A stretch of 56,132 nucleotides of DNA. Origin: Clostridiaceae bacterium (GTDB taxonomy: Bacteria; Bacillota; Clostridia; DSM-8532). Location of the stretch: assembly GCA_012521615.1 (NCBI GenBank), contig JAAYMA010000095.1, forward strand, positions 1 to 56,132, written 5' to 3'. This document shows positions 23,864 through 29,162 of the stretch, piece by piece; within the stretch, counting starts at the first letter, position 1, and each line of letters starts with the position of its first letter. The position numbers and the translations under genes were made by a program. The notes below the pieces were generated by a model. The model ran no database searches. It saw only the letters and a list, made by a program, of their open reading frames with translations, and had not been told where the DNA came from.

Positions 23864-24805
23864 TTACTTAATCTTTTTAAAATTTGAATTACAGCGTATG
23901 ACTTCAGGTAAAAGCACTTCAAGTTCGCTGAGGAATTTATCAGCTTCCCGTCTGATATGATCCAGCAGCAGCGGTGTGGAAACTATGCTCAATAATTTAC
24001 AGAGTGTTGCCAGTTCAAAAGCCGCCGCTTTGAAGTCACGGAGTTGTATAGTATTTCTGACAACATCTTCAGTAAAACGGATAACGGTATTAAAATGCTT
24101 TGGCATGGTATCATCCATTGATTCAAGGTCCCGGGCTGTTTCAAGCAGCCGCGAAAAGGTCTTCCTGAATTCTTCGGCCTGCTCTATGAGCTCCCTTTCG
24201 GAAGGATCCAGTAAATGGATTACAAATTCTATATGCTCCTTCATTATCCGAAGCCAGAAAACTTCCTGAACCAGCAGCAATTCCAGAGGATCTTTCGGTA
24301 CAGGTTTGAGAAGAAGTCCCAAAAATCGTTCAGCTTCTCTTCTGATATGGTCCAAAAGCAGAGGGTAATTGCTGCCGGGTGCTTCTTTGCACTGGATTAT
24401 TTGTCTTAGCAGCTCCGCTTTAAACATGATTATGGACTTGACTGCTTTTATTAAATTATTCAGCAGATCTCCCTCTAATTTGTCGGCTTTGTCAAGCCTT
24501 TTTCTAAGATCGCTGAATATGTCAATCAAGGATTGGGCTTCTTCCCTTGCTTTTTTCTGGTCGGCAGGCAGACCAAGTTTTATAAACAGAGCATGTTCCT
24601 GAAATATTCTGGTCCAGAAACGTGCTTCTTCAAGGCGGTTATATTGGCATATACATACCCGGCAATTCGGACTTCCGGATGTAATATCATATTCCTTCAT
24701 CACAACACTGTTATCAATTCTGGACCAGAACTCCTTATACTCCTTATCATACAGTACGTATTCCTCTTTTTCATGTTCGCTGAAGTTGCTTTCATTATCT
24801 TTCAC
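23864..24805 (-). CDS. DUF2935 family protein, ferritin-like metal-binding fold (duplicated)
   Basis: A 313-residue helical cytosolic protein. It is internally duplicated: W-x-RI-x2-EH-x2-F occurs at WTRIFQEHALF and WLRIMKEHIEF, and LLLDHIRREA-x-(R/K)-FL occurs twice. The E-H and H...E pairs are the likely metal ligands of this four-helix-bundle family, whose members bind iron; the physiological role is unknown. The start is GTG at 24803-24805, 7 bases after GGAGG; the frame is open further upstream but lacks a site. The N-terminal extension with CRVCIC (near 45-50) is unusual. Common in spore-forming clostridia. Confidence 0.8.
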   Translation of the reverse strand: MKDNESNFSEHEKEEYVLYDKEYKEFWSRIDNSVVMKEYDITSGSPNCRVCICQYNRLEEARFWTRIFQEHALFIKLGLPADQKKAREEAQSLIDIFSDLRKRLDKADKLEGDLLNNLIKAVKSIIMFKAELLRQIIQCKEAPGSNYPLLLDHIRREAERFLGLLLKPVPKDPLELLLVQEVFWLRIMKEHIEFVIHLLDPSERELIEQAEEFRKTFSRLLETARDLESMDDTMPKHFNTVIRFTEDVVRNTIQLRDFKAAAFELATLCKLLSIVSTPLLLDHIRREADKFLSELEVLLPEVIRCNSNFKKIK

Positions 24806-24876
24806 TGCGAGTCCTCCAATCATTTTCCGACAAATTTTTCCTAATACATAATATACAAACTTGAGTGTCAATGTGA

Positions 24877-26416: not shown

Positions 26417-26595
26417 GGAAATCCCCCTTTTTCTTTTTATAATAAAGATTTATTAACATATAGTTTTCCATTTTTCAGATTTATCATTGAATGATTGAAG
26501 TACGTTTATAATATTGACGTATCAGGTCATATGGTTAATTAGGATAAAATCAGTTATAATTAACTTATTAAAATTTGATTTGAAGGATGAAATTA

Positions 26596-27327
26596 ATGGT
26601 GAATACAACAGCTAAAATAAATACAATATCCAATTGCAAGAAATGTAATCATAAATTGTGTACTCAGAAAGTATCAATATTTTCATCGCTGAATATGGAG
26701 CAGCTTGCAAAGGTCGGGGATCTGATCAATCACCGGCGCTATAAAAAAGGTGAACTGCTTGTTATGGAAGGTGAAAAGACAGAGAGCCTTGTAATTATAA
26801 ATGAAGGTCAGGTCAAGGCCTATAAAACAACCCTGGATGGCAAGGAGCAGATTATTTATATATTTTCTGAAGGGGATTTTTTCGGGGAGCGGAATCTTCT
26901 GCGGGATTATGCCTCGCCATACAATGTGGAAGCCCTTGAAGAGACTCATGTTTGTATTATCCATAAAAGGGACTTTCAGATTTTGATCAAGTCCATACCT
27001 GATATCGCAGTAAAAATTATGGAAGAGTTATGCATGAGATTGGACAGGCTGGAAAATACAATAGAAACTATGGGTTCCCGTACCGTTGAAGCAAGGGTTA
27101 GTTTGGTTCTGCTGGAATTCGCTGATAAGTATGGCAAACCGCATCCCAGGGGAACTCTTATTGAACTTCCTTTAAGCAGGGAAGGCATTGCAAATTATAT
27201 CGGTCTTGCCAGAGAGACTGTCAGCAGAAAAATGAGCATTCTTCAGGAAGAAGGAATTTTAGAGATGATTGGCAACAAAAAAGTGTTGCTGTTAAATAGA
27301 AGTGAGCTTGAAAAAACATTAAAATAA
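26596..27327 (+). CDS. Crp/Fnr-family regulator with N-terminal cysteine cluster
   Basis: 243 residues: a cysteine group C14-x2-C17-x4-C22, a cyclic-nucleotide-like beta-roll (about 25-150, with GELLVMEGEKTESLVIINEGQVKAY and GDFFGERNLL), a long dimer helix, and a winged HTH with SREGIANYIGLARETVSRKMSIL. The recognition motif E-T-V-S-R is that of FNR. A fourth cysteine in the beta-roll (HVCIIHKRDF) could complete a [4Fe-4S] site, making it an O2 or NO sensor; this is inference. The ATG at 26587 lies within the GAAGGATG site, so ATG 26596 is preferred. DUF1858 and DUF438 genes follow. Confidence 0.87.
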   Translation: MVNTTAKINTISNCKKCNHKLCTQKVSIFSSLNMEQLAKVGDLINHRRYKKGELLVMEGEKTESLVIINEGQVKAYKTTLDGKEQIIYIFSEGDFFGERNLLRDYASPYNVEALEETHVCIIHKRDFQILIKSIPDIAVKIMEELCMRLDRLENTIETMGSRTVEARVSLVLLEFADKYGKPHPRGTLIELPLSREGIANYIGLARETVSRKMSILQEEGILEMIGNKKVLLLNRSELEKTLK

Positions 27328-27361
27328 GAGAACGTACATAGTTAAGTCGTTTTACAACCAG

Positions 27362-27389
27362 AAGCTGCCTTATAAGGCGGCTTTTTTTT
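27362..27389 (+). terminator. Rho-independent terminator after the Crp/Fnr gene
   Basis: AAGCTGCC (27362-27369) and GGCGGCTT (27376-27383), extended by the TTATAA centre, one G-U pair, followed by a run of eight T. Confidence 0.82.
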
Positions 27390-27436
27390 ATTTTTATGCG
27401 TGAAATCACAGTTTATGGCTTATTAATAACCTAATA

Positions 27437-27465
27437 TTTAAGTATATAAACCGGATATACTTAAA
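27437..27465. promoter_or_regulatory. 11-bp perfect inverted repeat, candidate regulator site
   Basis: TTTAAGTATAT (27437-27447) and ATATACTTAAA (27455-27465) with a 7-base centre AAACCGG. It lies between the Crp/Fnr terminator and the DUF1858 gene, just upstream of a possible -35 element TTGAAT (27474-27479). The position suits an activator site, for example for the adjacent Crp/Fnr protein, though it does not match the classic FNR box TTGAT-N4-ATCAA. Confidence 0.45.
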
Positions 27466-27583
27466 AAATATTCTTGAATTAGTTTGTTTTCACTATTTTA
27501 AATGGTATGTCTGAATAAAAGCATTTTAGAAAACATGAACTGTTAGAAAAAACTGAAATTTGTATCAGAAAGCAGGTGCTTAT

Positions 27584-27811
27584 ATGGCTAAAGTTTTAGA
27601 TTTGAACAGACCCGTCCGGGATTTGATAAATGAATATCCTGAAGCTGCTGAGATTATGAAGGAACTGGGTTTCGAAAGTATTATCAATCCAAGTATGCTA
27701 AATACTGTCGGACGGTTTATGACAATTAAAAAAGGTTCTGTTATGAAAAAAATTGATTTGGACAAAATAAAAGAAGCTTTTCAATCTAAAGGATTCCAGA
27801 TTAAAGAATGA
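27584..27811 (+). CDS. DUF1858 domain protein
   Basis: A 75-residue single-domain protein: VLDLNRPVRDLINEYPEAAEIMKELGFESI, then INPSMLNTVGRFMTIKKGS and a helical end. DUF1858 is related to the N-terminal domain of the ScdA/Ric iron-centre repair proteins, but the Cys-containing turn of that family is absent here (no cysteine at all). GCAGGTG precedes ATG 27584. It is followed after 67 bases by a DUF438-hemerythrin gene, the other half of what in ScdA is one chain. Function inferred only from domain company. Confidence 0.85.
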   Translation: MAKVLDLNRPVRDLINEYPEAAEIMKELGFESIINPSMLNTVGRFMTIKKGSVMKKIDLDKIKEAFQSKGFQIKE

Positions 27812-27878
27812 AACTGCAGTAACGCATTTTCTTAATGTTTATCACATGTATAAGAATAATCATGAAGAGGTGAATAGT

Positions 27879-29108
27879 ATGAGTGAAATAATCAATAACC
27901 GCGAACATCGGCAAAAAATTCTTAAAGAGCTCATAGAAGAACTACATCGGGGAAAGACAGTTGATGAAGTAAAACCTCGTTTTGAGGAACTGATAAAGGG
28001 CGGAGTTACAACAACTGAAATAACTGAGATGGAAGCTGCCCTTGTTGCAGAGGGAATGCCCGTCGAAGAAATTCAAAAACTTTGTGATGTTCATGCAGCT
28101 GTATTCAAAGGATCTATTCAGGATATTCACAGACCTGTCAGACCTGAGAACATACCCGGTCATCCTGTTCATACATTCGTTCAGGAAAACAGAGCTATAG
28201 AAGAAGTAATGGCTACAATCCAAAACGATCTGGAACAGTTTAAAACTGATGATTCAAAGTCCAATCTCAAAAAATTGATAAAAGGATTCGATAAGCTTTG
28301 GGAGATCGACAAACATTATTTCAGAAAAGAAAATCTGCTCTTCCCGTATCTGGAGAAGTACGGTATTACGACTCCGCCTAAGGTTATGTGGGGAGTAGAT
28401 GATGAAATAAGAGCAGATATCAAACTGGTAATGAATCTTCTCAAAGATTACAGTGGTGATAAGGAAGAACTGATAGAAAAGGCAGAATTTGCTTTGGAAC
28501 GTGTTAAAGAAATGATATATAAGGAAGAGAGTATATTGCTGCCCCTTGCCGTGGATACGCTTTCGGAGGATGAATGGATTGAAATTCAGAAATCAAGTGA
28601 TGAGGCGGGTTATGCATTAATCAAACCTAAAGCAAAATGGAAACCTGTCAGGGTTGATGTGGAAGAAAAGGCCCGTGAAGAAGGCGAAGAACCTTCGAAT
28701 GATGGATATGTTGACTTTGATGCAGGAATAATGACACCGGAGGAAATAAATGCTGTCTTAAACACATTGCCTTTAGACTTGACCTTTGTTGATAAAGATG
28801 GAATTGTCAAATGGTTTTCAATGGGCAGTGAAAGAATATTCGCCAGACCTAAAACAGTTCTGGGGCGTGAAGTTAAAAACTGCCATCCTCCAGCAAGTAT
28901 GCATATAGTTGAGAAAATAATTGAGGATTTGAAATCAGGCAAAAAAGATCATGAAGATTTCTGGATACGTATGGGTGACCGTTATGCATTCATCAGATAT
29001 TTTGCAGTGCGGAATAAAAAAGGCAAGTTCTTAGGTGTTCTTGAAGTTACACAGGATATTAAACCTATACAGGAGATAACAGGGGAAAAAAGACTTATGT
29101 CTGATTAG
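27879..29108 (+). CDS. DUF438-hemerythrin-PAS protein
   Basis: 409 residues with three parts. DUF438 at the N-terminus (about 5-80: KILKELIEELHRGKTVDEV, GGVTTTEITEMEAALVAEGM, LCDVHAAVFKGS). A hemerythrin-like bundle (about 90-240) with HPVHTFVQEN, DKHYFRKENLLFPYLE and MIYKEESILLPLA, where His and Glu are likely di-iron ligands although the last helix has EE where classic HHE domains have His. A C-terminal PAS domain (about 300-400: LPLDLTFVDKDGIVKWFS ... EDFWIRMGDRYAFIRYFAV). A diiron sensor of O2, NO or redox state is the natural reading; no output domain is present. ATG 27879 follows GAAGAGGTG. Confidence 0.87.
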   Translation: MSEIINNREHRQKILKELIEELHRGKTVDEVKPRFEELIKGGVTTTEITEMEAALVAEGMPVEEIQKLCDVHAAVFKGSIQDIHRPVRPENIPGHPVHTFVQENRAIEEVMATIQNDLEQFKTDDSKSNLKKLIKGFDKLWEIDKHYFRKENLLFPYLEKYGITTPPKVMWGVDDEIRADIKLVMNLLKDYSGDKEELIEKAEFALERVKEMIYKEESILLPLAVDTLSEDEWIEIQKSSDEAGYALIKPKAKWKPVRVDVEEKAREEGEEPSNDGYVDFDAGIMTPEEINAVLNTLPLDLTFVDKDGIVKWFSMGSERIFARPKTVLGREVKNCHPPASMHIVEKIIEDLKSGKKDHEDFWIRMGDRYAFIRYFAVRNKKGKFLGVLEVTQDIKPIQEITGEKRLMSD

Positions 29109-29127
29109 CAAGCTGGATTTAGGAAAA

Positions 29128-29152
29128 AGGGCTTCCCTGACCGGGAAGCTCT
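29128..29152 (+). terminator. Terminator after the DUF438 gene
   Basis: AGGGCTTCCC (29128-29137) and GGGAAGCTCT (29143-29152), 10 pairs with one G-U and a 5-base loop. The following T-run is poor. Confidence 0.5.
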
Positions 29153-29162
29153 TAACTCATAT

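Follow-up and report, generated by a model that had tools for sequence, protein, structure and literature searches.

The window, a 56,132-nucleotide stretch (contig JAAYMA010000095.1, positions 1 to 56,132), belongs to a 2.2-Mb clostridial source genome which is 99.9% complete. Analysis of open reading frames and Pfam domains found the three genes as the earlier note had described them, encoding a Crp/Fnr-family regulator, a DUF1858 protein and a DUF438-hemerythrin-PAS protein, all on the forward strand. The FNR-type regulator (26596..27327) has 243 aa counted from the ATG at 26596; the ORF opens at 26587, and the second ATG was preferred for its better-placed Shine-Dalgarno sequence. Matches to cNMP_binding (PF00027, 4.9e-23) and HTH_Crp_2 (PF13545, 4.9e-16) gave the Crp fold. 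The second gene (27584..27811) encodes a stand-alone DUF1858 protein of 75 aa (PF08984, 2.1e-20) from the Cys-less NPxMLNT(V/A)GR subfamily, and the third (27879..29108) a 409-aa protein in which DUF438 (PF04282, 1.4e-26), hemerythrin (PF01814, 1.8e-17) and PAS_10 (PF13596, 8.4e-30) domains follow one another in that order. A stem-loop 3' of the DUF438 gene (29127..29153, forward strand; -18.2 kcal/mol, z -1.75) coincides with a minus-strand terminator-like site and is possibly a bidirectional terminator. Near the locus, outside the conserved neighbourhood, a protein with two DUF2935 repeats and hemerythrin-like H/E motifs is encoded on the reverse strand (23864-24871).

Numbering from the ATG at 26596, the C14-x2-C17-x4-C22 arrangement previously ascribed to the regulator was borne out, and a fourth conserved cysteine, C120, which had been overlooked, was identified. 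In an alignment with FNR of E. coli, its sequence taken from MG1655, C14, C17, C22 and C120 (C17/C20/C25/C123 of the 246-aa ORF) corresponded to C20, C23, C29 and C122, with the third cysteine offset by one gap position as a result of its x4 rather than x5 spacing. The protein therefore carries the three N-terminal cysteines and the one central cysteine of FNR, and these were kept in 10–11 of 11 sequences. At the level of sequence, four cysteines at FNR positions support the proposal of an Fe-S regulator, and the protein would be expected to bind an Fe-S cluster. Its recognition helix reads RETVSR.

With respect to transcription, the regulator gene is followed by an intrinsic terminator (27360..27385, forward strand; an 11-pair stem then a T-run, -15.3 kcal/mol, z -2.7). 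Some ten bases further on begins a predicted operator, TATGC-GTGAAA-TCACA (27395..27410, forward strand), and a predicted -10 hexamer, TAATAT (27432..27437, forward strand), lies 21 nt after TCACA. From this spacing a transcription start is predicted near 27444, with the operator centred at -41.5. By these signals the regulator gene is transcribed alone; a single three-gene operon was excluded by the terminator and the separate promoter ahead of DUF1858. The operator gives an exact pattern match in its own genome and is kept in relatives, where the consensus is (A/G)TG(A/C)-N6-TCACA(G/T), followed 21 nt beyond TCACA by a TANNNT hexamer. Operator and 21-nt spacer were present in 13/13 module-bearing loci and in 0/5 loci where the regulator precedes something else, a count which is not independent, as the pattern was derived from the same intergenic regions. 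The operator was found whether the next gene encoded DUF1858, a flavodiiron protein or ScdA. The pattern matched none of 3,900 dinucleotide-shuffled sequences, and in the fetched loci the 21-nt spacer gave 34 matches (24 distinct) compared with 0–13 for other spacers between 12 and 33. No good -35 box was found in the module promoters, where candidates matched 1–3 of 6 positions. The class II activation layout is established for CRP and FNR, and the -41.5 centre combined with the lack of a good -35 box points to such a layout here. The regulator would activate from this site, and its connection to the two genes behind it gains support from the conserved predicted operator and promoter. In G009 a DUF438 remnant stands behind the regulator and the operator is gone; the remnant (L032, 2232-2354) corresponds to aa 268-314.

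Conservation of the neighbourhood across clostridia, which the earlier note had proposed as a check, was observed within the genus and in four lineages outside it. The three genes lay together in 9/9 same-genus genomes where all three were found, two of which had an extra gene between regulator and DUF1858, encoding a flavodiiron protein (G010) or ScdA (G004). In a survey of DUF438 relatives (80 named-record loci, 77 of them with more than 500 bp upstream), Cys-less DUF1858 was directly upstream of DUF438 in 21/77 loci. In five more (L123, L128, L129, L132, L138) it opened the DUF438 gene run, and genes for 6-phosphogluconate dehydrogenase, glucose-6-phosphate dehydrogenase (G6PDH) and a cyclase came between. 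By our estimate, with 1–4 DUF1858 genes per genome and loci which are not independent of one another, well under one adjacency would be expected by chance. Nine loci had an orthologue of the regulator upstream, including four from outside the genus (L105, L124, L149, L161), and genes for a flavodiiron protein, true ScdA and stand-alone hemerythrin recurred in the clusters of relatives. Many DUF438 loci had neither regulator nor DUF1858; the link of DUF438 to these genes is thus common and non-universal. In the source genome (C118), G6PDH and cyclase genes also precede trxB and a Cys-type DUF1858 gene, and the gene runs with G6PDH suggest a link to NADPH and thioredoxin. In six loci from thermophilic and digester clostridia (L088, L098, L101, L103, L106, L110), DUF438 is preceded by a conserved protein of 465 aa.

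When the operator pattern was searched over 14 genomes of the genus (g1), 27 matches were obtained versus about 5 for the reversed control. A second pattern applied to 61 genomes gave, by our own table count, 40 matches versus 18 for the control inside the genus and 44 versus 40 in the 47 outside genomes. A one-mismatch search of the source genome was not enriched (14 versus 19 in the control), and the analysis was for this reason restricted to sites with cross-species conservation. Such sites preceded nifS in six genomes (the source genome among them, where nifU is just behind nifS), a Cys-type (CxGC) DUF1858 gene in at least seven, the source genome's copy having one mismatch, and scdA in the source genome (G000, exact to the core pattern), G010 and G013, as well as inside the cluster in G004. 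In G010 and G026 the operator was also found ahead of an ATP-cone ribonucleotide reductase, and in G007 and G008 ahead of a 4Fe-4S ferredoxin. Since the 13/13 count was drawn from the source regions of the pattern, the matches at scdA, nifS and DUF1858 provide independent support, and with nifSU, scdA and DUF1858 as targets the predicted regulon would be one of Fe-S assembly, repair and O2/NO defence. The locus had earlier been read as one which senses and answers O2 or NO damage. Its setting among such functions, and its regulatory link to them, are supported by the predicted regulon and by the neighbouring genes, while the response itself is deduced from the regulon. In the source genome scdA (L251, G000:C18, 451-3429) is followed by genes for a small heavy-metal-type protein with CxxC and for a P-type ATPase of 622 aa, and ATPases similar to the latter occur near DUF438 in L133, L137 and L142.

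Three Crp-family genes were found in the source genome, with recognition helices RETVSR (the window protein), REVVSR (C103, L195) and RPSMSR (C132, L194). Under the R180/E181 rule of Rodionov et al., which links recognition-helix residues to the half-site (PMC1274295), the RETVSR and REVVSR proteins are both expected at a TGTGA-type half-site and the RPSMSR protein at an HcpR2-type site. The operator could accordingly belong to the C103 protein, which carries the equivalents of R180, E181 and R185, the adjacency of the FNR-type gene being then historical. We regard this as improbable, given that the site adjoins orthologues of the FNR-type gene in the four outside lineages and that the genome-wide excess of operator matches is limited to the genus holding that gene. 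Adjacency in several lineages favours the window FNR-type protein as the binder.

The 75-aa protein scored above the gathering cut-off for DUF1858 (73 bits against 32.2) and matched structure 2fi0 (E=2.4e-14); among 28 sequences no cysteine was conserved. The suggested kinship of DUF1858 with the N-terminal domain of ScdA held for the Cys-type paralogue of the same genome, which matches ScdA_N (E=4e-4), while for the window copy it was weak, the protein matching only DUF1858 in Pfam and the solved ScdA chains at E=0.31. The predicted model of the DUF438 protein (pLDDT 78.8) matched 3cax (Z 22.9) and the FBXL5 hemerythrin (Z 12.8), and in this model the hemerythrin part has a hemerythrin-like fold. 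The DUF438 domain itself had a pLDDT of about 50–70, too low to place H23, C69, H72 and H84 in space. These four residues, H95, H146 and the CHPP motif of the PAS domain were invariant or nearly so in relatives. In PAS_10 the motif reads NCHPPAS (28878-28894; C335-H336), its C, H, P and P being invariant across the relatives compared; it is possibly a ligand or metal site.

The earlier note had taken DUF1858 and the DUF438-hemerythrin protein to be a split iron-centre repair module, that is, a ScdA/RIC di-iron repair protein divided between two chains. Such a reading draws on the domain resemblance to ScdA, the predicted sharing of a regulon by ScdA and the DUF1858-DUF438 pair, and the adjacency of the two genes in 21/77 loci. 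Known ScdA/YtfE proteins join ScdA_N, with its DFCCGG motif, and hemerythrin in one chain, and the six di-iron ligands of YtfE are H84, H129, E133, H160, H204 and E208 (PMC9268430). Here the chains are separate, with neither a ScdA_N match nor a Cys pair, and the DUF438 hemerythrin domain falls short of the six ligands. Profile alignment with ScdA and YtfE placed K150 at E133 and M212 at H204, both invariant in 63 relatives, and D175 (or I177 in another alignment) at H160; H129 (H146) and E208 (E216) were retained, and H84 probably corresponds, by position only, to H95. Judged from these alignments, the domain lacks at least two, and probably three, of the six ligands in all 63 relatives. Given these losses the DUF438 protein would not be expected to form a canonical di-iron site; it may have a metal site of another kind. 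Moreover, the source genome has an intact one-chain ScdA that carries DFCCGG and the full set of six YtfE ligands, and in L091 and L149 ScdA stands beside DUF1858-DUF438 in one cluster. With intact ScdA in the genome, the ligand losses and a DUF1858 devoid of conserved cysteines, the split-ScdA candidate was rejected, and we consider it very improbable indeed.

As a whole, the observations are best explained, with somewhat better than even probability, by an FNR-type activator of a regulon for Fe-S assembly, repair and O2/NO defence which includes DUF1858-DUF438. The regulator would carry an Fe-S cluster on C14, C17, C22 and C120, bind (A/G)TG(A/C)-N6-TCACA(G/T), which lies at -41.5 in the promoter that follows, and recruit RNA polymerase in class II fashion, so that DUF1858 and the DUF438-hemerythrin-PAS protein are expressed. 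In trans, it would activate intact ScdA, the NifS-NifU pair and the Cys-type DUF1858 protein. Expression would most likely rise when the cluster is damaged or lacking (through O2, NO, or iron or cluster demand). The DUF438 protein would serve as a cytosolic PAS-containing adaptor or sensor acting with DUF1858 in this response, rather than as a di-iron enzyme or a split ScdA; this sensor-adaptor role is proposed from its PAS domain and context.

The activating form of the regulator is the point on which readings diverge, as target content favours the damaged form and homology the holo form. E. coli FNR activates from -41.5 sites and is active with its cluster intact. Were the window protein a classical anaerobic FNR, as its cysteine set, overall homology and strict class II geometry would fit, the intact [4Fe-4S] form would activate and the regulon would be on as long as cells grow anoxically and iron and sulfur suffice; O2 or NO would destroy the cluster and lower expression, the genes then serving routine Fe-S maintenance and not a damage response. 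This has a minority share of the probability in our judgement, as it would shut off repair and flavodiiron genes exactly when they are needed, and an anoxia switch is of little gain to a strict anaerobe. The activator of a repair and defence regulon set out above remains our preferred reading. In its most specific form the FNR-type regulator would be a switch for Fe-S homeostasis, standing in for IscR/NsrR and activating nifSU, scdA and DUF1858 upon damage to its own cluster, and DUF1858-DUF438-PAS would be a new sensor-adaptor for Fe-S stress, one of a non-di-iron type; we put this forward only tentatively. A regulator that did fire when its cluster is lost would be a homologue of FNR working by the reverse of the E. 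coli logic, and would explain how Fe-S supply is adjusted to O2 or NO in some strict anaerobes. Regulator, operator and target set are named and testable, and DUF438 and Cys-less DUF1858, both widespread families without a name, gain a regulatory setting beside Fe-S assembly and repair.

In the open PMC literature no papers were found on FNR-type regulators with Clostridia and NO, on FNR with Fe-S biogenesis and C. thermocellum, or on DUF438 with hemerythrin. Solved relatives exist for the hemerythrin-PAS part (PF0695, 3cax), the PAS domain (SMU_1151c, 2qkp) and DUF1858 (2fi0), and their entry titles assign no function. DrpB of Thermus (DUF1858-DUF2249) is encoded by a gene which depends on DnrT, a master regulator of nitrogen-oxide metabolism (PMC6282519); it differs in that DUF1858 is fused to DUF2249, in affecting nitrate respiration and in having no DUF438. 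ScdA/YtfE (RIC) shares a hemerythrin-type bundle and predicted membership of the same regulon, whereas the present proteins are separate chains with a Cys-less DUF1858, a broken ligand set and an added PAS domain. HcpR and HcpR2 of clostridia and Desulfovibrio are likewise Crp/Fnr-family regulators of nitrosative-stress genes in anaerobes, and the Desulfovibrio HcpR motif, TGTGA-N6-TCACA, resembles the present operator (PMC1274295). Clostridial HcpR2 differs, being defined by a GTAAC-N4-GTTAC motif, Pro/Ser/Gln at position 181 and hcp as core target; HcpR2 identity was excluded for the window regulator by its RETVSR helix, which has Glu at position 181, and by the TCACA type of its site, hcp was absent among the operator matches inspected, and the RPSMSR paralogue (L194) looks closer to HcpR2. 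E. coli FNR (and NCBIfam FnrL/Fnr) has in common with the regulator the Crp fold, three N-terminal and one central cysteine, and the E..SR recognition residues. In contrast to FNR, with its x5 spacing and VETISR helix, the window protein has C-x2-C-x4-C and RETVSR, the latter pointing to a TCACA half-site; its host is a strict anaerobe, and its predicted regulon is one of Fe-S assembly, repair and NO/O2 defence.
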